In this document: one piece after another, positions 53,116-63,988 of the stretch | Position numbering within the stretch: the stretch's first letter is position 1 | Layout of the letters: each line of letters begins with the position of its first letter | Translations under genes and position numbers: made by a program | Notes under the pieces: generated by a model | The model's database searches: none | The model's input: the letters and a program-made list of their open reading frames with translations, nothing else | Told to the model about the DNA's origin: nothing | DNA from: Demequina sp. NBRC 110055 | GTDB lineage: Bacteria > Actinomycetota > Actinomycetes > Actinomycetales > Demequinaceae | Direction of reading: 5' to 3' | Length of the DNA: 64,000 nt | NCBI RefSeq assembly: GCF_002090135.1 | Contig: NZ_BBRL01000011.1 | Coordinates: forward strand, 1 to 64,000

Positions 53116-53909
53116 TTAAGCCGCGAGTTTTGCGACGGGTCTCATGACAGCCGCGAACTCGACGGGGGGGGTCAAACCTCCGAGACAGTCTTGCGGTCGG
53201 CAGTGGTGGTACGTCCGCTCGATCCAGGTCACGATCGCCGGGCGTAGTTCCCGGCGAGTGTGCCAGCGTCGCTGGTTGAATACGTTGGTCTCCAGCAGCG
53301 ACCAGAACGACTCCATCGCGGCGTTATCCCCTGCAGCGCCGACGGGTCCCATCGAGCCGACCATTCCGTGACGGTACAGTGCTCGCGCCATCTTGCGAGA
53401 ACGGAACTGGCTACCCTGATCGCATGCAGGATGCAGCCAGCGACATCACCGCGGCGGGCGACGGCGAATTTGAGGCCGTCGACGGCATGCCCGGCAGGCA
53501 TCCGATCGACGATTGAGTAGCCCACGATGCGGCCCGAGTAGACGTCCTTGATCGCGCAGCAGCACAGTTTGCCTTCGTCCGTCCGACGCTCCGTGATGTC
53601 AGTCAGCCACACCCCGTCGAGAGCGTCTGCGGTGAAGACTCGCTCGACGAAATCCTCGAACACCGGCGGGTCGGAGCGCTTGCCCTCGAGGAACCGGTAG
53701 CCGAACGTCGGGTCGTCCGTATGGGCGTCCCACAGGACGTTGACACGGTGCGCCTGCACCCACTCGGTAACGGTCACGGGATCGGCCCGCCACCGACAGT
53801 ACGTCTGACGCGAGAGCTTGAGGACCCGGCACCGCACCGCGACGGGGATACCGTCACCAGCGAGTTCACTTACGAGCGGGCACAACCTTTTCCCGGTAAC
53901 TGCGCCTGG
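53116..53909 (-). pseudogene. IS3-family orfB (transposase), disrupted
   Basis: The DDE integrase core is readable in pieces: GIPVAVRCRVLKLSRQTYCRW, DGVWLTDITE (first Asp), CAIKDVYSGRIVGYSI, and in a second frame GSMGPVGAAGDNAAMESFWSLL (catalytic Glu) and RPAIVTWIERTYHHCRPQ. At least one frameshift near 53380 separates them, and after FGYRF about 45 residues of the HTH/linker region are missing compared with the copy at 61.6 kb. It cannot encode a whole transposase. Confidence 0.82.
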
Positions 53910-54179
53910 GACAAGTAGGCGGCCGCATGACCTAAGACCTCGTTCTCCTGCTTGCGCAAACGGATGCGCCACTTCAGCTCACTCGTCTCGGCAGCATCGG
54001 CCGCGGTAACGCCGACCAGTCCGGCCGGACTCGACGTCATCGGCACGCAGCCACTTCTGCAAGCAGGCCTCACAGATCCCGAAGTCCCGTGCAATCTGCT
54101 TGGTCCTCACGCCGTCCTCACGGCAACGAGCGACCGCGATCACGTCGTCTCGGAAATCTTCCCGATAGGGCGCGGGCAT
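53870..54179 (-). pseudogene. IS3-family orfA, frameshifted
   Basis: Begins PAPYREDFRDDVIAVARCREDG with the helix-turn-helix TKQIARDFGICEACLQKWLRADD, then shifts frame; the leucine-zipper part continues as ELKWRIRLRKQENEVLGHAAAYL. The intact equivalent is at 61350-61639. Confidence 0.8.
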
Positions 54180-54260
54180 GGGTACACACTGCCAACAGCG
54201 CCACACGGCACTACAGATCAGATGTCGCCAATCCGTTCACCACGCCCGTTCTCGCCCGGG

Positions 54261-55385
54261 CTAGCGATCCTTCAGTGCGCTCAATAGGGTTCCTGTAGGA
54301 CGTGCGCCCAGCACGATTACCGCGATGGTAGCGCCTATGAGCGTGAGTGCGGTGTGCACAGAGACGAGCGCCAATGCTTGGCTCGGTGCCGCACCAAATG
54401 CGAGACTTCCCACGAGGCCGATCGACCAACCAAAGGACGCTCCCACGCACGCGAGCGTTGCCCATTCGGCCACGGTCATGACGAGTCGAGATGACGCCCT
54501 CATCCCGAAGGTTGCGTAGATAGCGATATGCGCCCGCCGGAACCATTGCAGCAGCGCCCACAGTAAGCCGAGTAGCGCAGCCGCAGGCAGCCACAACCAC
54601 CGCAATGGTCGATCCTCGTAGGCAGTCGTGTAGTCAATTGTGAACTCCGACTCGAAGAGTCTGGGGCTGACTACTGCGGGCGTGCCGTCATACGACAGCT
54701 GTGCGGGGAGAGCAGACTCTACTGCGCTGTGGTGGGCTGCATCGGTTCGGACAAAACAAGTGTCGGCCTCGTCCACAAGGTGGGCAGGCATCAGCAACGA
54801 TCCGTCAAATTCGTCGCCTATCGAGGCGCTTTCTGCGACTCTTACCTCAAGCGGAACGGAGCTATCAAGTGCGCTGGTTTCGCCTGAACGGACTATGACG
54901 GTAGCGACTTCGCCATCGCTGACCCCTGTGCGTTCGGCGAAGGCGGCAGTAGCTATGACCACGCCGTGGCTACTCGGCTCGACGTCGAGAAACTCCATAG
55001 CTCCGGGCGAGACACTGTAGACAGACGCACGGCCTCCGGGAATCTGGATAACCGAACCGTCGGCGTTGGTGCGCTTGAGGGCAAACGAAGCCTCAATCCC
55101 GTCGATCTGCGACAATCGTTCGCATTTTACCGCGGGGATCGGGAGCGCCGAGTTGGAATCCTGTTGCATGCCAGCAACTACGAATACGTGACCTCCCGCG
55201 TCGATCCATGAGCGTTCGGCTTCGATCAGGCGCGTTACTCCGACAGCATCAGCGACCCCAGGCGCTGCGATCGCCCAGGCGACCGCTACAACGATCAGTA
55301 CGGATGTCCACCGCCCGGAGCGCGCAGTCGCGACACCTTCGCTTGCCGAGAGCCTCCATGGCCACGCGCGCCGCCCCGGCCTCAA
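54261..55385 (-). CDS. ABC transporter permease, MacB/FtsX type
   Basis: A 374-residue permease with the MacB layout: one N-terminal membrane helix (SVLIVVAVAWAIAAPGVAD, about 29-47), a large external domain of about 210 residues, then three C-terminal helices (LWLPAAALLGLLWALLQWF, LACVGASFGWSIGLVGSLAF, ALTLIGATIAVIVLGA). Such permeases move lipids, peptides or drive enzymes through mechanical motion instead of classical transport. The ATG overlaps the ATPase stop by 4 nt. The stop lies 13 nt from the IS end, so a slight C-terminal truncation cannot be ruled out. Confidence 0.82.
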   Translation of the reverse strand: MRPGRRAWPWRLSASEGVATARSGRWTSVLIVVAVAWAIAAPGVADAVGVTRLIEAERSWIDAGGHVFVVAGMQQDSNSALPIPAVKCERLSQIDGIEASFALKRTNADGSVIQIPGGRASVYSVSPGAMEFLDVEPSSHGVVIATAAFAERTGVSDGEVATVIVRSGETSALDSSVPLEVRVAESASIGDEFDGSLLMPAHLVDEADTCFVRTDAAHHSAVESALPAQLSYDGTPAVVSPRLFESEFTIDYTTAYEDRPLRWLWLPAAALLGLLWALLQWFRRAHIAIYATFGMRASSRLVMTVAEWATLACVGASFGWSIGLVGSLAFGAAPSQALALVSVHTALTLIGATIAVIVLGARPTGTLLSALKDR

Positions 55386-56035
55386 GCGCGGCCACCAAGG
55401 TGTTCGAAGATCTCACCGTCGCGGAGTTCAAGTACGGTGTCGCACCGCGCAGCCACTTCCGGATCATGCGTCACGATCACGACCGTTCGCTCGCCGTGCG
55501 CCCCTATTAGCGCATCGAGAACCTTCCTGGAGGTTTGCGCATCGAGCTGGCCGGTCGGTTCGTCGGCAAGAATAATCGGCGTGTCCGATGCCAATGCGCG
55601 AGCAATCGCGACCCGCTGCGCCTCACCGCCAGACAGTATCCGAGCTGGGTCGTTCTCACGGCCGAAAAGCCCGACAGCCGAGAGGCACTCTATCGAGCGC
55701 GTCCGAGCTTCCGAACGGGAAGCGCCCGCTGAGTATGCGCCTAGCGCAATGTTGTCGAGGACCGTGCGGTCGGGAAGCAGAGAAACCGTCTGCAATACCC
55801 ACGATGCCGTCTCTGAAAGCGAACGACGGCGACCCGTGCTGTCAAGAGCATGGATCGCTCCGTGCTGCATTGGCAACAGCCTGCCCATCAGCGACAAGAG
55901 CGTAGTTTTCCCCGAGCCGGACGGCCCCACGATCGCGGCTGCTGCTCCGGAAGCCACAGTAAAGTCGACCCCTGTCAGGACTTCATGATCGCCATGCGGG
56001 TACCTGTAGGTAACTTGGCTGGCAACTAGTCGCAC
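55382..56035 (-). CDS. ABC transporter ATP-binding protein, MacB/LolD type
   Basis: A 217-residue ATPase with Walker A GPSGSGKTT (37-45), LLPDRTVLDNIALG after the Q-loop, signature LSGGEAQRVAIARAL, Walker B IILADEPTGQLD and switch His in VIVTHDPE. These are the features of LolD/MacB/FtsE ATPases that work with FtsX-like permeases. GTG start overlaps the adaptor gene stop by 10 nt; it is the third gene of the overlapping operon. Confidence 0.93.
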   Translation of the reverse strand: MRLVASQVTYRYPHGDHEVLTGVDFTVASGAAAAIVGPSGSGKTTLLSLMGRLLPMQHGAIHALDSTGRRRSLSETASWVLQTVSLLPDRTVLDNIALGAYSAGASRSEARTRSIECLSAVGLFGRENDPARILSGGEAQRVAIARALASDTPIILADEPTGQLDAQTSRKVLDALIGAHGERTVVIVTHDPEVAARCDTVLELRDGEIFEHLGGRA

Positions 56036-57105
56036 GACAAATCACTTCGAACCTCGCGCGGATTGAGTAACACCGTCTGACCCAGCAGCGACGGCTCGAG
56101 TTCGACGGTGCCGAGGGATCCACCTGCGGGCTCCACGACGATCGCCGCTTCTTGCACGCCGGGAAAGAAGCATGTGCGACCGGCGCCGTCGGCTACCAAT
56201 GCTGAGGCAGGAACCGTCGCTACCGTTCGCGGTGTCGCCAGTCGAATAGTCCCCACGCTCTCCTCAAGAGTGCCCATCGCTTCCGCGATGGCAGAGACCG
56301 ATTCGGGCTCTGTCACCGCTCCGGTGCCGACCTGGTAGGGAGTAGTCACGCCCAAGACTTCCAACTCGACGGCACCGTCTCGTGGGAGCGCTCCTGTCTC
56401 GGTGACTCCGATAGCCGCTAGCGAGGCAGTCGTTGTGAAAACCTCGCTGCCAGGTACAACCGCGTCACCAAGCGCCACCACCATGTCACTAACCGTTGCA
56501 GGCTCAGGACCGACCCAGACCAACGCCCCACGTGACAGCGTCGTGTTGTTCTTGCCGTAGCCGGAATCCTCATTGAAAGCCATAATTGCGCGCGCTGTGG
56601 AGACTCCGGCTTCGCCGTCAGCTTGGCTTTCAAGGTAACCCAAGTCCTTCAGGAGCTGCTGGGCCGTACGGACGTCATCACCCTCATCGCCGCGAGATAT
56701 GTCTCGGTACAGCGGCGCCTGCGCAACGTACGCGACCACGCTTCTGGCGTCAATCTCGATGAGTTGCATCCCTTGCGCAACCTCATCGCCGACCTTGGCG
56801 TTGAGGGCCGTGATCGTGCCGCTGGCGTGAGCGGTGGGTACGATTGCGTTGGCGTACTCAATAGTGACTGCGACATTCGTGTCGCCGCTTCGGTTTGCGG
56901 CTTCAACGGCGCCGATCAGGGGCTCGGCCCGCGCCGACGACTCCAGCGGCGACTGGCTTGCTACTACAACGACCCACGTTCCTAGCGCCATAAGCGGCGC
57001 AACCAAAACCGTGACAAGAACGACAGTCGCACTCGCGCTCAGATACGACCGCTTCGTAACATTCATCGAACGGTCGGAGACTGCGTCGTCAATCTCAGTA
57101 GGCAT
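56026..57105 (-). CDS. Membrane-anchored adaptor with peptidoglycan-binding domain
   Basis: A 359-residue single-pass protein. Membrane segment at about 24-49 (ATVVLVTVLVAPLMALGTWVVVVA), lipoyl/HlyD-like strands (ASGTITALNAKVGDEVAQGMQLIEID), then a peptidoglycan-binding_1 insert (RGDEGDDVRTAQQLLKDLGYL...VSTARAIMAFNEDSGY) and a second barrel-like part. In Gram-positives such HlyD/PG-binding fusions take the adaptor place in MacAB-type systems. Overlaps the lipoprotein stop by 11 nt. Confidence 0.85.
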   Translation of the reverse strand: MPTEIDDAVSDRSMNVTKRSYLSASATVVLVTVLVAPLMALGTWVVVVASQSPLESSARAEPLIGAVEAANRSGDTNVAVTIEYANAIVPTAHASGTITALNAKVGDEVAQGMQLIEIDARSVVAYVAQAPLYRDISRGDEGDDVRTAQQLLKDLGYLESQADGEAGVSTARAIMAFNEDSGYGKNNTTLSRGALVWVGPEPATVSDMVVALGDAVVPGSEVFTTTASLAAIGVTETGALPRDGAVELEVLGVTTPYQVGTGAVTEPESVSAIAEAMGTLEESVGTIRLATPRTVATVPASALVADGAGRTCFFPGVQEAAIVVEPAGGSLGTVELEPSLLGQTVLLNPREVRSDLSCD

Positions 57106-57706
57106 CGATATCTACTTCTAGCAAGCAGTCGTCTCCCTGATAGGACGTCGAATTCATTAATTCAACCGCGCGTTCAGCGAGCTCGAGACCATCGGCATCG
57201 ACGTCTGGCGAAATATCTTCGTTCTCGAGGCATGTGCACAAAGCACGCTGCTCGGATTGCACGCACGCATCGCGCTGCGCCTCCCAACTTGGCTGCACCG
57301 CGTATCGCCACTGGACTGCCTGGAGGTTCTGGCGATCACGTTCGTCGACGATAGGCATCTGGCCGTCAGACGCATCCACCGTTTCTGCCGCAACGGCGTA
57401 TCTCGGGAATGCCATGCCCCCGTCGTATGAATCCACTTCGTACTGAGCGTCAAGCCCTGCGTCGATTAGACATTGAACAGGCAGCCTGGCCGCTTCCCGT
57501 GCGGCGTCGAGTGTCAGTTCTCCCCGTTCGCGCGCGTCTTCAAGGACCTGTAGCTGAGCGTCACTGGCCCCAATGCCTCTTGCGAGTTGTAATGCGTCGT
57601 TGACCTGCGATTTGAAGGCGACGCCATCTGCGCTGTTCTCTGCCACAGCGCAAGACGACGCCAAGACGGCGGACGCGACACCCACACTCATCCACACCGC
57701 ACGCAT
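57095..57706 (-). CDS. Lipoprotein of a cysteine-patterned family (member 1)
   Basis: A 203-residue lipoprotein: signal peptide with VLASSC lipobox (Cys about 19). The mature part has GASDAQLQVLEDARERGELTL, QCLIDAGLDA, DACVQS, LCTCLENE, a DVDADGLELAERAVEL segment and DDCLLEVDID. The four conserved Cys positions (QC, AC, CL, DC) and the surrounding words match the lipoproteins at 58305 and 60602. First gene of the adaptor-ATPase-permease operon; probably an extracellular partner or sensor. The function is unknown. Confidence 0.8.
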   Translation of the reverse strand: MRAVWMSVGVASAVLASSCAVAENSADGVAFKSQVNDALQLARGIGASDAQLQVLEDARERGELTLDAAREAARLPVQCLIDAGLDAQYEVDSYDGGMAFPRYAVAAETVDASDGQMPIVDERDRQNLQAVQWRYAVQPSWEAQRDACVQSEQRALCTCLENEDISPDVDADGLELAERAVELMNSTSYQGDDCLLEVDIDAY

Positions 57707-58259
57707 CAGGCGACCGCGACGTCGTTGGCGAGCCCATCTACGCAGTAGTCGCCGCGTAGAGCGAACGGCGTACACGCGTATCCGTCTCCAACGCGCGAGT
57801 CTCCGCACCGAGAGCAAACTCCGGAATGTTGCAGAAGACCAACATCATTCAGATGTGCCGCCAGCAAGTTCTGAGGCCCCTCGAAAAAGCCATTACTCTC
57901 AGCAAACAACTCGGCGATCCCCCAACTACCCGTCGACTCATCACCACTTCCAGGCGTCAAGGATCGACACGAAATATCCCACACAAGCCTGTGAGATTCA
58001 GAATATTGAGTGCGGAATTCTTCCGTCGACGCTAGCGCATGTCCGAGGGCCTCGCAAGGCTCGGCGACCGTCACGCCCCCGGGAGCGGGCGAGTGATCAG
58101 ACGCAGCAAGATGTCACGTGTCAGGAGACACACCATTCCCATAACTCTAGGAACTGGAAGCCTGCGCCAACGCGCTTCAGCGTCACATCGCGCTTCGCAA
58201 CTGAACTCCCACGGAGAGACAAGGGCGGCGGCACGACTCCTGGCAAACATGTCCGAAAA
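57707..58259. other. Divergent intergenic stretch without a recognised gene
   Basis: About 550 nt between two lipoprotein genes of the same family facing away from each other. Short frames are present but none is protein-like. The 17-nt palindrome at its right end is the only clear element. Confidence 0.45.
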
Positions 58260-58276
58260 CGTCTAGCATATAGACG
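58260..58276. promoter_or_regulatory. 17-nt palindrome upstream of lipoprotein 2
   Basis: CGTCTA-GCATA-TAGACG is a perfect 6-5-6 inverted repeat 29 nt before the GTG of the lipoprotein gene, overlapping TAGCAT/TATAGA, a likely -10. It is a candidate operator. Confidence 0.55.
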
Positions 58277-58304
58277 CCATCTTCGATTGTCCCGGGGGGC
58301 GACA

Positions 58305-59045
58305 GTGACACGAAACAAGCCGCTAACTCAACTGGTTTTCGCCTTCGTAGCATTGGTCGCGTTGAGCGGCTGCGTTCCAGGCCCTGATCCCAGCTATACC
58401 GTTGTGGCGGCGTCGCCGAGTGACCAGCAGCCGGCTGGTTCGACGGCAGACCCGACCTCTTCCTCGGAAACCGAGGTACCGCAGCCTGCACCTAGTCAAT
58501 CCTCCGCCTCACAGATGCCTGTCGGTGAAATCCCACCCGAGGGCACTATCGACTACTTCGAGTACTTGGCCAAGAACGATCCCTCAGTTAGCGACGCTCA
58601 GCGCGACCGCCTCTCGCGCGCTGCCAGCACCGGGAATCTCTCATTCGAGGAGTACTCACAAGCGATTGACGCGGCGTTGGGGTGCATCACGGATGCCGGC
58701 GTCGCAATATACGGCCCAAAGCGCAAAGACAATTCCGGATATCCACGGCTCAGTTACGGATTCGCGGCAGGGACCGGCGAAGACGGCAGTGCCAGTACCC
58801 CGGTTCCCGATGCATGCATACGGCAACACAGCTGGTACGTCGAGATGGCGTATTCGGATCAGCCTAGAGTGCAGCAACTACTTTCCGACTCACTGGAATC
58901 CAAGCGAGAGTCCGTGCGAATATGCGCCGAAGGCGCCGGGATCACTGCGGACAATCAGTTGCCTGTGCGCGCGTGGCTGCTCGAGTTGGTTCACACCTCG
59001 GCCGGACGTGACTGCGTCGCTGCAGCGGACATCACAGAGTTCTAG
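58305..59045 (+). CDS. Lipoprotein of the cysteine-patterned family (member 2)
   Basis: A 246-residue lipoprotein: signal peptide with a VALSGC lipobox (Cys about 24), a Ser/Pro/Gln-rich linker to about 80, then DPSVSDAQRDRLSRAASTGNLSFEEYSQAIDAALGCITDAG, PDACIRQHSWYVEMAYSDQP, RICAEGAGIT and GRDCVAAADI. The four cysteine sites align with those of members 1 and 3. GTG start follows GGGGGGCGACA. A terminator hairpin comes after the gene. Confidence 0.82.
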   Translation: MTRNKPLTQLVFAFVALVALSGCVPGPDPSYTVVAASPSDQQPAGSTADPTSSSETEVPQPAPSQSSASQMPVGEIPPEGTIDYFEYLAKNDPSVSDAQRDRLSRAASTGNLSFEEYSQAIDAALGCITDAGVAIYGPKRKDNSGYPRLSYGFAAGTGEDGSASTPVPDACIRQHSWYVEMAYSDQPRVQQLLSDSLESKRESVRICAEGAGITADNQLPVRAWLLELVHTSAGRDCVAAADITEF

Positions 59046-59087
59046 TGACCCGCGCGTGTGACGCGATGGCGCCGCCTCATTGAGATG

Positions 59088-59120
59088 GGCGGTGAAGACT
59101 TCTAGGTAAGTCTTCCCGCC
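59088..59120 (+). terminator. Terminator hairpin after lipoprotein 2
   Basis: GGCGG-GAAGACTT and AAGTCTTC-CCGCC form a 13-bp stem with a single bulged T and a six-nt loop. Confidence 0.65.
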
Positions 59121-59188
59121 TCCGCCCACGCTGCAATCACCGCTCCGAGTGTCCTAAGTCGAAGCTGTCTGTCGAGGGGAAGAGGAAG

Positions 59189-59692
59189 ATGCCCACGAGA
59201 ACCAAGGAACACGTAGGAGCCATTAAGACGCCACGGAAGAAGCGATACGTATCGTCCACCTTCCGCGTCGCCGCGGGCATTACGTTGGCATGTTGCGTTT
59301 CCGGATGCACATCCAATATCGCCGACGAGTACCCAACAGAAGTTCAGGTCGTCGCCTTAATTGACTCTGCATACCATGGCAGGCTCGATCAAGACGCACT
59401 GTGCAGCGTCGCCACTTCTCGTAGTACATGTATCGCCACGCTCCAGGGCGCAGGCACTCCGCCTCCAGCGGTTCCAAACGTTACCTGTACAGCGAAATAT
59501 GCCGGTGAAGGTGCGATGACACGCGGCCGACTCGTCCGTGTCTCAACACAAAGCGACGCAGGCGGAGTTGTTTTCGAGACGATCGCGATTAGCACGCAAG
59601 AAGGCGCGCGCCTCGTGAACCCGGTCTACTGGGTAGCGGCTACTGTCTCGTCAGGCAACACCTCAGACGACAGTATTGACTTCAACTGCTGA
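59189..59692 (+). CDS. Putative lipoprotein, unrelated to its neighbours
   Basis: A 167-residue protein with a long basic N-terminus, a signal segment (FRVAAGITLACCVSGC) and lipobox VSGC. The mature part has DALCSVATSRSTCIATLQ and a strand-rich TCTAKYAGEGAMTRGRLVRVSTQS region ending in Cys, reminiscent of small secreted beta domains. No family recognised. Ribosome site GAGGGGAAGAGG precedes the ATG. Confidence 0.72.
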   Translation: MPTRTKEHVGAIKTPRKKRYVSSTFRVAAGITLACCVSGCTSNIADEYPTEVQVVALIDSAYHGRLDQDALCSVATSRSTCIATLQGAGTPPPAVPNVTCTAKYAGEGAMTRGRLVRVSTQSDAGGVVFETIAISTQEGARLVNPVYWVAATVSSGNTSDDSIDFNC

Positions 59693-60576
59693 GACGTAGC
59701 AGTGCAAGCGTCCAGGTTCGAGCATTTGGCCGCATTGAACGCCGCGATCGATCAACCGAATTGCGTGTGGACACGAACACGGGCGAAAATCGCCGTCGCG
59801 GCCCATCAACCCCCTTGTCGCCGGAGGACACGGGCGTCGAAGACACGTGGGATCAGGCGAGCCCGCCAGCCGGACCAAGCGTCGTCTGGCAATGCGGCTC
59901 AGACTCGACCGTGGCCAGACGAACCTCGCTCAGATAATGGACGGGCCCGCTGGATTTGAAGCTCGGGGACTCCAACAACGTGGAGTTCTTTCAAGCGCGC
60001 CGATGCATCACGTATCCCGCGGCCCGCTTTAGCGCACGTCACTTAACCAGTCCCAAAAGCCTGCGTGCCCATTGCGCTGATGCAAACTTGAGAATCCTGG
60101 GCGCCGACCATCCGCCACGATCCCGCGCATGCAACTGCGATACACACGCGGATCGAAAAGGTCTCATACCAATAGGCACACGCCCGGCAATCATCGACGC
60201 GAGCGACTCTTGACGAGAGCCAACCCAAGCGATAAATTCGATAAACAGGCCTGGGGGACGATCGCTTGGGCCCATGGAGGCGTTATTTGCAAGTCTATAG
60301 CGAATCGTCGCGACGTCGCACATGCGCTTCAATGCATTTATAGCTTATCTTGTTACACAAAATGTTTCAGCGTGGGAGTAGGGTGCACTACATCTCTTGG
60401 TACGTCGCTCGCCATATTTCGCTTCGACACGACCACACAAGCTGGCGTTAGCGCGATGTTTAAAATTTTCCGCACCCAAGGTACTCATCACTGGACGCGA
60501 GACTTCCGCATTGATAATTGGAGGCTGCAGACTAAGGATGGAATCTCGAGGATCTCAGTTACCTGTGCGACCCGTC
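59693..60576. other. Long stretch without a recognised gene
   Basis: About 880 nt that is visibly poorer in GC in its right half, with scattered short frames of no clear homology. It may be decayed or recently acquired DNA. Confidence 0.45.
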
Positions 60577-60600
60577 ATCACGTGGATCGAGAGGAACAAC
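60577..60600 (+). pseudogene. Tiny IS3 transposase remnant
   Basis: The frame reads VITWIERNN, and ATCACGTGGATCGAGA is identical in sequence to the IS3 orfB at 62409-62424. It also carries GAGAGGAA, which serves as the ribosome site of the lipoprotein gene that begins at 60602. Confidence 0.4.
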
Positions 60601-60601
60601 G

Positions 60602-61243
60602 GTGAGTAATTCAATTCGTCGCCTCTTGACTCCGGCACTGGCAGCAATGTGCGTACTACCAACTATCGCCGGGTGCTCAGCGGAGAACACGAGCGAGGAT
60701 TCGGCGTCGAGCGAACAGAAGCCATACTCAGAGCGGGTGCAGTCGTATCTTGAGGAAGCGACCTCCGAGGGAGCGAGCGAGACACAGATCGACGAGCTTC
60801 GCGAGGCTCTAGCTACAGGAGAGGTCCCCTACGAGACAATGCGCGGGGCAACCCAACGGGCCGTCGACTGCATGAGCAATGCGGGACTAGACGCGTCAAT
60901 CGCGGACGTGACGCAAGCTTCCGGACTCGAGGTGCCGATGTACCGAGCTTCACACGGCGAGGAGATCGACCCAGACACAGGATGGGAGATGATCCGTGCG
61001 TGCGAGACAAGCGAAACTTACTGGCTGAGCGCTGCCTATCAGCAGCAGCCAAGCGCTCGCGAACAGCTATCCCAGTACGTGCGATCCAAAGAGACTGAAC
61101 TGCGCGAATGCTTGCAGGACAACGGCGTCGAAGCCGACGACGACGCAGACGGATGGGAACTGGCGGAACTCGCCCTGGAGTTCTCAAGCGCACCGGAGGG
61201 CGGCTTTGATTGCCTGAGTACTGTCGGCATAGACGGCTTGTAG
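60602..61243 (+). CDS. Lipoprotein of the cysteine-patterned family (member 3)
   Basis: A 213-residue lipoprotein: lipobox TIAGC (Cys about 25), then GASETQIDELREALATGEVPYETMRGA, VDCMSNAGLDA, MIRACETS, RECLQDNG, DDADGWELAELALEF and FDCLSTVGIDG. These words align closely with member 1 (57095-57706), more closely than with member 2. GTG start follows GAGAGGAACAAC. It stands just left of an IS3 element, so the cluster may have been split by insertions. Confidence 0.82.
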   Translation: MSNSIRRLLTPALAAMCVLPTIAGCSAENTSEDSASSEQKPYSERVQSYLEEATSEGASETQIDELREALATGEVPYETMRGATQRAVDCMSNAGLDASIADVTQASGLEVPMYRASHGEEIDPDTGWEMIRACETSETYWLSAAYQQQPSAREQLSQYVRSKETELRECLQDNGVEADDDADGWELAELALEFSSAPEGGFDCLSTVGIDGL

Positions 61244-61349
61244 GCGCCCACTGAGGATTCAACGGCACTGGAGCGCGACTGTCGCGCAAGGGTCTGGCCC
61301 AAGATCGATTGACTCTGACCGCCACGGATCTCGGTCCGTGCTGGAAGGA

Positions 61350-61639
61350 TGTTTCCCGTGCCCAAGCCCTATCCCACCGAGTTCCGTCGAGATGTCGTCG
61401 CGGTCGCCCGTCAGGGCGGCTCGATCGCGCAGATCGCGAAGGACTTCGGCATCACTGAGTCGTGCCTGCGCAACTGGTTGAAGAAGGCCGACGTCGAGGA
61501 CGGTGTCCGTCCCGGCGTCGCTGCTGAGGGATCGGCCCAGATGCGTGAGTTGAAGACGCGCAATCTTCAGCTCGAGGAAGAGGACGAGATCCTCGGGAGG
61601 GCTGCGGCGTACTTCGCCAAGTCGATCTCCCCAAAATGA
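61350..61639 (+). CDS. IS3-family transposase OrfA
   Basis: About 96 residues: KPYPTEFRRDVVAVARQGGSIAQIAKDFGITESCLRNWLKKADV (residues 6-49) is the helix-turn-helix that binds the element ends; ELKTRNLQLEEEDEILGRAAAYF is the leucine zipper. Complete, though the partner OrfB is not. Confidence 0.88.
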
Positions 61640-62525
61640 CGTACCCGCGGGTCCTTGATCTTGCCGCCGACGGCATCCCCGTCGCGGTGACCTGCCGAGG
61701 GACACGGCTCTTCCAAGCAGGCGATTTACAAGTGGGAGGCCAACCCCATCACGGACGCCGACCATGATCGTGCCTACCTGATCAACGCCGCGCTCGACGT
61801 CCACTCCGACGATCCCGAGTTCGGCTACCGGTTCATTTCCGACGAACTCCAGGCACTCGGCCTCGAGGTGTCGCGCAACAAGGTCCACTCGCTGTGCAAG
61901 GAAGCAGGCATTATCGCCGCCGTGCACAAGCGCACAGGCTCGGGCAAGAAAGCCGGTCCGCCTGTCCTCGACGACCACGTCGAGCGCGCGTTCACCGCCG
62001 ACGCCCCCCACCGGGTGTGGCTGACCGACATCACCGTGTCTCTGGACCGGCGACGGCAAGCTCTACCTGTGTGCCATCAAGGACGTGTTCTCGAACCGCA
62101 TCGTGGGCTACGCGATCGACAGCCGGATGAAGTCCTCGCTGGCGGCCGCCGCCCTTGAGCAAGCCGTTGCCCGACGGACACTCGTGGGTGCTGATCTGAG
62201 CGATCTGACGTGCCATTCGGACAGAGGAAGCCAGTTCCGCTCCAGGCGCTTCGTCGGGGCCCTGAACGCCCATGGCATCCGCGGCTCGATGGGCCGCGTC
62301 GGTGCTGCTGGCGACAATGCCGCGATGGAGTCGTTCTTCTCGCTGCTGCAAAAGAACATTCTCAACCGCAAGCGGTGGGAGTCCCGCGAGGAGCCCCGTC
62401 TGGCGATCATCACGTGGATCGAGAAGACTTACGATCGACGCCGCCGGCAAGCACGCCTGGGCCGGATGACGCCCATAGAGTTTGAGACCGTTTACGCTAC
62501 CCAACAGGTCGCTCTCGTGGCCTGA
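61636..62525 (+). pseudogene. IS3-family orfB with two frameshifts
   Basis: The integrase parts are DLAADGIPVAVTCR, then (other frame) AYLINAALDVHSDDPEFGYRFISDELQ, APHRVWLTDIT with the first Asp, a shift near 62040, then YAIDSRMKSSL, LTCHSDRGSQF (second Asp), GDNAAMESFFSLLQ (Glu) and AIITWIEKTYDRRRRQ. Shifts at about 61705 and 62040 break the reading frame. Programmed -1 shift does not explain them. Confidence 0.85.
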
Positions 62526-63288: not shown

Positions 63289-63846
63289 TCACGCGCCCTC
63301 CAAGAACTGCTCGATGTGTTGAATGTGGTCGCTCGTGATGCCACGGCGACGATCGGGGCACACTGCGAGTACAGATTCGTGCAGCCACCCCAGTTCGTGG
63401 TCGCGCTGCTGCAAAGCAACTTCGCGCCGCCATGTGTCGATGTCGTCGTCGATCCACACCGCACGCACGCCACGAGCCGCGACGGCGCGGTTGACGTTCT
63501 GGGCTTTCCACCAGGAAAAGCTGGTCGGGGTGTTCTTCACCACCCATGGAGCGACCGGCCAGTCGTGCCCGAGACCGACAATGGGAGCCAGGAGGTCGAC
63601 CGCATGGTCGCCCCACGTCGTGCACCAGCGCATCTGCACGCCGGGCATGGCCCCCATGACACGCAGAGCGTCGACGGCGGCGAGATTCCAGGTGAGAGTC
63701 CCTGCGCCCATCGGCGCTCCGAAGTCCACGTAGCGGCTTCGCCACGTGTCGGCGGGCCAGTGCTCCAGGTCGTCAGGCCCGTCGGGCTGCGCGTTGATCA
63801 CGCCGTCGATATCGACGAACACCTCTGCGCCGGCGCTACGCGTCAT
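63289..63846 (-). CDS. HAD-like phosphatase, SAK/RNA-repair-type domain
   Basis: A 185-residue HAD-fold protein. The nucleophile motif is EVFVDIDGVINAQP (about residues 7-20), the second motif is in MRWCTTWGDHAVDL, and the Asp motif is RAVWIDDDIDTW. The W.T.W and WIDDD patterns match the HAD domain of Swiss-Army-Knife RNA-repair proteins and related stand-alone actinobacterial HADs, so a 3'-phosphatase-like activity on nucleic acids is possible. The gene lies 205 nt from family member C. Confidence 0.8.
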   Translation of the reverse strand: MTRSAGAEVFVDIDGVINAQPDGPDDLEHWPADTWRSRYVDFGAPMGAGTLTWNLAAVDALRVMGAMPGVQMRWCTTWGDHAVDLLAPIVGLGHDWPVAPWVVKNTPTSFSWWKAQNVNRAVAARGVRAVWIDDDIDTWRREVALQQRDHELGWLHESVLAVCPDRRRGITSDHIQHIEQFLEGA

Positions 63847-63988
63847 CGTGATTGCCGAAAACGTCGAGGCGTAGCAAGCATTCGAGCTGGGGTTCCGCGC
63901 GACGCGCACGCCAGGGCCGCAGCCAGCTTCCGCGTAGCACCGCATCTTGCGCCGTCGCGACTGCGACAGGAATCACATCAAGAATCAC
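63836..63988 (-). CDS. Possible small protein overlapping the HAD gene start
   Basis: A 50-codon frame from a GTG at 63988 with GGGGTG upstream, ending in a TAG that overlaps the HAD start by 11 nt. VILDVIPVAVATAQDAVLRGSW is protein-like but no family is known; it may extend beyond the window edge. Overlap with the HAD start suggests coupling. Confidence 0.35.
   Translation of the reverse strand: MILDVIPVAVATAQDAVLRGSWLRPWRARRAEPQLECLLRLDVFGNHDDA

Follow-up and report, generated by a model that had tools for sequence, protein, structure and literature searches.

What kind of machine is encoded where a family of cysteine-patterned lipoproteins meets a MacAB-like ABC system, and has it been described before? 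In the window, the whole 64,000-nucleotide stretch of Demequina sp. NBRC 110055 DNA analysed here, four overlapping genes on the reverse strand (57808-54261) encode lipoprotein 1, an adaptor, an ABC ATPase and a permease. Their overlaps are 11 nt (lipoprotein 1/adaptor), 10 nt (adaptor/ATPase) and 4 nt (ATPase/permease), and these overlaps agree with the original prediction. Lipoprotein 1 (P0001, 57098-57706, stop codon 57095-57097) is the first gene of the array; the Met start at 57706 leads to a lipobox, ASSC, which places the lipid-bearing Cys at 57652. Two further lipoproteins had been proposed to face away from the array, and both do lie on the forward strand: lipoprotein 2 (P0002, 58305-59045), divergent from the array, and lipoprotein 3 (P0003, 60602-61243), each with four mature Cys.

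The three lipoproteins are homologous (single BLASTP comparisons, 2e-18 and 1e-11) and each carries a lipobox, which bears out their assignment to one family. The four Cys positions they were thought to share are found in lipoproteins 2 and 3, but lipoprotein 1 lacks the second Cys and has two extra Cys close to the third. Conservation of the Cys columns across 134 family members is 99-100% throughout, complete at the first and third and 99% at the second; lipoprotein 1 is the sole exception at the second, among the 131 members in which that column is filled. Similarly, the GAS(D/E)xQ and DxDG words ascribed to all three are present in P0001 and P0003, whereas P0002 has SVSDAQ instead and lacks DxDG. 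A profile search could have placed these proteins in a known family, and none claims them: neither Pfam nor NCBIfam gave a credible family for the window lipoproteins, and NCBIfam matched none of 30 relatives. Among proteins of known structure we found no credible sequence relative. Phage and plasmid origins of the lipoprotein were considered and rejected, as tblastn gave no match in phages or in plasmids; searches of viral contigs returned no useful match, and a scan of genome contigs with one protein as query gave five distant loci.

How is the lipoprotein built? We looked for internal repeats in 121 lipoproteins whose mature form contains exactly four Cys. A Gly stands at +5 after Cys1 in 98% of them and after Cys3 in 78%. 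The HMM of the Cys1-Cys2 half matched the Cys3-Cys4 half (best E 1.7e-13, with 41 of the 121 below 0.01), and the reverse search also succeeded; Cys-preserving shuffled controls gave no matches between halves. These half-against-half matches show the lipoprotein, at the level of sequence, to be made of two homologous C-x4-G...C units, that is, of a two-Cys unit duplicated in tandem. The family can thus be recognised by a lipobox followed by two such units, encoded upstream of a PG-binding adaptor, with P0001 deviating at the second Cys. Disulfides are predicted between C1 and C2 and between C3 and C4. An AlphaFold2 model of the lipoprotein (pLDDT 85.8, pTM 0.76) is mixed helical with one beta-hairpin, and the four Cys sit in helices 53-69, 100-114, 126-149 and 177-188 (mature-protein numbering). 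Compared with the PDB and with viral structures, the model found no match (best E 0.69 and 0.06, respectively; TM ≤ 0.31).

The adaptor (P0006, 56026-57105, reverse strand) appears from its sequence to comprise an N-terminal TM, a weakly HlyD-like first lipoyl half, a peptidoglycan-binding domain and a second lipoyl half. The predicted peptidoglycan-binding domain was recovered by Pfam (PG_binding_1, residues 142-180, E 1.3e-7). HlyD_D23 matches the window adaptor weakly (E 1.7e-3) over model positions of about 15-94 and ends at the PG-binding domain; in relatives, the match resumes past this domain at model positions of about 98-185, and HlyD_3 reaches E 2.6e-8 in a Streptomyces homologue. 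In MacA-type adaptors, a helical hairpin between the lipoyl halves reaches the outer-membrane channel. Because HlyD_D23 matches both before and after the PG-binding domain, we infer that this domain sits between the lipoyl halves, in place of the MacA-type hairpin; a TolC-docking hairpin is replaced there, as far as sequence tells, by PG_binding_1. Structure prediction of the adaptor was of low confidence (pLDDT 33, four sequences), so the hairpin replacement is read from sequence only.

The ATPase (P0005, 55382-56035, reverse strand) is intact, with Walker A (GPSGSGKTT), LSGGE and DEPT, so that Walker A, Walker B and signature motifs are all present, and its identification as an ABC ATPase was confirmed by Pfam (ABC_tran, E 2e-27). 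Its nearest NCBIfam families are of the MacB/LolD/FtsE type, all far below their cut-offs, the best model being the lactococcin 972-type exporter TIGR03608 (155 bits, cut-off 254.85). A role in defence was rejected, as the PADLOC matches of the ATPase were generic ABC/AAA matches, and the JetC match of P0003 in PADLOC was a coiled-coil-like chance match.

The permease (P0004, 54261-55385, reverse strand, 374 aa) shows by inspection one N-terminal TM, an outer domain of about 200 residues with two invariant Cys, and three C-terminal TMs. Its assignment to the FtsX type is not obtained for the window protein by Pfam alone (no match at E ≤ 1) but is recovered through its relatives. FtsX was detected in two of seven close homologues (best E 9e-4), and three distant ones carried both FtsX and MacB_PCD, each with E no higher than 1e-19. 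The Streptomyces homologues reach 3e-25 (FtsX) and 4e-20 (MacB_PCD), and our permease HMM matches them at 7e-12 to 3e-8. Homology through relatives thus supports a divergent FtsX/MacB-type permease.

Do these genes belong together beyond this locus? With a 30-sequence profile, the lipoprotein family was found in 12 of the 47 genomes of the host's taxonomic family and, across its order, in no fewer than 63 of 396 genomes and 27 of 109 genera; the order-wide search scored no more than 8 candidates per genome, so its counts are lower bounds. Within the genus, lipoprotein-bearing genomes were those with a close adaptor homologue. In the taxonomic family, where the counts were assembled by hand, the module was present in 11 of the 12 lipoprotein-bearing genomes versus none of the 35 others (p 7e-10, which overstates independence because the genomes are related). 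Across the order, the adaptor occurred in 54 of the 63 lipoprotein-bearing genomes versus 79 of the 333 others (p 9e-21, overstated for the same reason), and the remaining nine lipoprotein-bearing genomes had no adaptor match.

For the reverse test we took 60 adaptor loci, 55 of which were not at contig ends. Directly upstream, 34 of these 55 adaptors had a lipobox protein with 4-6 mature Cys, compared with 0 of 141 control genes picked from the same loci away from module genes. Lipoprotein-HMM matches lay near a further 10, which brings to 44 of 55 the adaptor loci with a lipoprotein upstream or adjacent; two of the 11 loci without one also lacked the ABC genes. The lipoproteins therefore co-occur with the adaptor and ABC genes elsewhere, by genome and by adaptor locus, which favours the original prediction. 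The order lipoprotein-adaptor-ATPase-permease is kept in most loci of the other taxonomic families of the host's order. Of 296 genomes sampled across the phylum, 31 had an adaptor, and a four-Cys lipoprotein, often with FARCMREHGVDMPDP...C twice, lay directly upstream in 14 of 29 adaptor loci. Two Streptomyces plasmids carry the genes in this order, with the annotation 'hypothetical protein, peptidoglycan-binding protein, ABC ATPase, permease'. The gene set recurs in this way across Actinobacteria-type genomes and so resembles a machine in wide use, not a peculiarity of this locus. We conclude that the module is one branch of an arrangement that is widespread in the order and detectable phylum-wide.

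Typically a single lipoprotein gene lies immediately upstream in the module, often with others around it, and for lipoprotein 3 the closest homologues adjoin the module in two related genomes, at 63% and 58% identity. On the lipoprotein tree, copies that are upstream, nearby or solitary intermingle, although they cluster more than chance would give (14 changes; mean of shuffles 20.2), so copies move between roles. Genomes rich in solitary lipoproteins also occur, and a single pump does not readily explain them.

The GC content of the module (0.59-0.62, versus 0.677 in window bases 1-52000) is compatible with a foreign origin. Mobility had also been suggested from an IS at each side, which the flanks do not support. 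The flanking IS are two IS3-like remnants, mutually inverted and each broken over several frames; the two copies differ (64-68% identical) and are decayed, with no matched pair, so an IS-bounded mobile element was rejected as a demonstrated feature of the module.

What could such a set of proteins do? The reading we favour, tentatively and at somewhat less than an even chance, is that of a MacB-type ABC machine (type VII, mechanotransmission) of single-membrane bacteria. It would have four components and dock on peptidoglycan, and its lipoprotein would recognise substrates or act as a gate on the membrane side. This reading is favoured by the conserved gene order, the co-occurrence, the conservation of the Cys, the internal duplication, the position of the PG-binding domain, the MacB_PCD and FtsX matches in relatives and a two-component pair near some loci. 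MacB-type machines work at the membrane's outer face (PMC5985334), and Gram-positive MacB-like systems with adaptors act on extracytoplasmic peptides (PMC5985334, PMC4887032), which we counted in favour of a pump. Cytoplasmic ATP hydrolysis would drive the permease and, through it, the permease outer domain and an adaptor held against peptidoglycan. Anchored in the outer leaflet and presumably stiffened by its two predicted disulfides, the lipoprotein may act in substrate recognition or gating; it would gather membrane-active molecules, for example peptides or lipophilic antibiotics, at the surface of the membrane, from where the machine would expel them across the wall. Lipoprotein paralogues encoded elsewhere in the genome might then serve as alternative receptors for the same machine. 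Weighing against this reading are the nine lipoprotein-bearing genomes of the order in which no adaptor matched, the presence of a two-component pair at no more than about 10% of loci, and the genomes with numerous solitary lipoproteins.

The lipoproteins could instead be cargo, extracted by a LolCDE-like module and passed along the PG-bound adaptor to the wall or surface. LolCDE, a MacB-fold relative, does extract lipoproteins (PMC5985334), and one genome combines a single adaptor locus with about ten scattered lipoprotein copies, as cargo would show. Yet the place directly upstream of the adaptor is almost always taken by one lipoprotein, the ATPase falls far under the LolD cut-off (144 versus 308 bits) and no LolA/LolB-like partner was noticed on reading of the loci. 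We consider this role unlikely.

Immunity against an antimicrobial peptide, with a LanI-like lipoprotein and a YknXYZ-like ABC part, draws on two observations: the MacB-type systems YknWXYZ and AS-48 guard against self-made peptides (PMC5985334, PMC4887032), and the nearest NCBIfam model of the ATPase is the lactococcin-972-type exporter, albeit below cut-off (155 versus 255 bits). It is quite unlikely. Beside the window module neither a toxin precursor nor a modification gene was identified, no lantibiotic biosynthesis genes were recognised on reading of the loci, and very different genomes carry the module without a recognised shared extra gene.

Of 115 module loci, 11 have an OmpR-type two-component pair no more than 6 kb away, versus 0 of 32 solitary lipoprotein loci; the 11 include the two Streptomyces plasmids, where a response regulator and kinase adjoin the module. 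This would suit an envelope-stress sensor in which the ABC unit detects a ligand or wall damage via the lipoprotein and relays the signal to a two-component system in the manner of BceAB. Such a sensor is nonetheless improbable: about 90% of the loci have no such pair nearby, none lies beside the window module, and the 374-aa permease has a MacB-like topology, not that of the ten-TM Bce type. Least probable, and by our estimate very much so, is FtsEX-like control of a peptidoglycan hydrolase brought to its site by the PG-binding adaptor and the lipoprotein, for although the adaptor has the PG-binding domain and the ATPase scores 143 bits against FtsE (cut-off 265), no hydrolase was recognised in the examined loci and FtsEX has no HlyD-like adaptor.

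If a wall-docked pump with a recognition lipoprotein is the right reading for this module, the Actinobacteria may possess a phylum-wide and so far undescribed class of MacB-type machines in which peptidoglycan docking replaces the outer-membrane channel and specificity comes from interchangeable two-unit, two-disulfide lipoproteins, some of them encoded far away. We regard this generalisation as a speculative one that is rather less likely to be right than wrong. Were it true, one machine would serve several substrates via different lipoproteins. If the favoured reading is right, a protein family annotated merely as 'hypothetical' in many Actinobacteria would supply the fourth component that a common envelope machine has so far lacked, and MacA-like adaptors in cells without an outer membrane would dock on the wall. 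It would also bear on the handling of peptides and drugs at the envelope in Streptomyces, Micrococcales-like and other Actinobacteria.

How does the module compare with known systems? It shares with MacAB-TolC (type VII ABC) a separate or fused ATPase and, probably, a MacB/FtsX permease with an outer core domain and an HlyD-like adaptor anchored by one TM; it differs in having no outer membrane partner, in the PG-binding domain at the site of the channel-docking hairpin and in its extra four-Cys lipoprotein. YknWXYZ of Bacillus likewise has four components, namely an adaptor, an ATPase, a MacB-type permease and an accessory membrane-associated protein. YknW, however, is a Yip1-family integral membrane protein (PMC4887032), and the fourth part of the module is a secreted lipoprotein that resembles no known family, so it recalls YknW in position only. 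The lactococcin 972-type exporter provides the best ATPase model, yet far below cut-off, and no lactococcin-like gene was recognised near the module. LolCDE is also a MacB-fold ABC that involves lipoproteins, but it has no PG-binding adaptor, and the module, with an ATPase below the LolD cut-off, encodes its own lipoprotein. Bce-type systems have a ten-TM permease and an adjacent BceRS, which the window module lacks. Streptomyces operons (e.g. PV796_RS41305-41320) share the gene order, the lipoprotein with two C-x4-G units and the homologous adaptor, ATPase and permease; their lipoprotein is shorter, a response regulator and kinase are adjacent, and they are annotated without function. The original prediction knew of no named system with this set, and our full-text literature search found no description of it, which is weak evidence since open-licence papers only were covered. 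The claim stands for the complete set but not for its chassis, which appears to be the known one of a MacB-type ABC with an HlyD-like adaptor; what looks new is the undescribed lipoprotein that this chassis carries.

An OmpR-type response regulator and a kinase adjoin the module, an array of lipoprotein, adaptor, ABC ATPase and permease genes, at 11 of its 115 loci, often in divergent orientation. Loci carrying this regulator/kinase pair include L181, L182, L148, L159, L215, L225, L234, L236 and L085.

About ten solitary four-Cys lipoprotein genes, lying away from the module, are dispersed in the 2.5 Mb genome G009 (loci L037 and L045–L051), and several of them have a third-position GC lower than that of their neighbours. 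An intact module in this genome adjoins an apparent second-module remnant (G009:C1:1791877-1792606), in which part of an adaptor gene, interrupted by a stop codon, accompanies split lipoprotein pieces. Three to four lipoprotein paralogues stand in tandem at L157 (4322-7634) and L176 (4021-6485), both in small genomes from another family of the same order; one of these two arrays has no nearby ABC genes.

The module region of Demequina sp. NBRC 110055 is flanked by two decayed IS3-like elements in inverted orientation (left, 53116-54190, minus strand; right, 61349-62525, plus strand), sharing 64–68% identity. A search for further copies of the right-hand element in the same genome found none. 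Between lipoproteins 2 and 3, paralogues of the module lipoprotein, lies a small plus-strand ORF (59189-59692; 167 aa, lipobox VSGC), secreted or lipoprotein-like, which has no family matches and falls outside the four-Cys family. Near the window end, the minus strand at 63289-63945 gave a sub-threshold match (E = 1.3e-4) to HAD_SAK_2, a domain whose name derives from RNA repair proteins.
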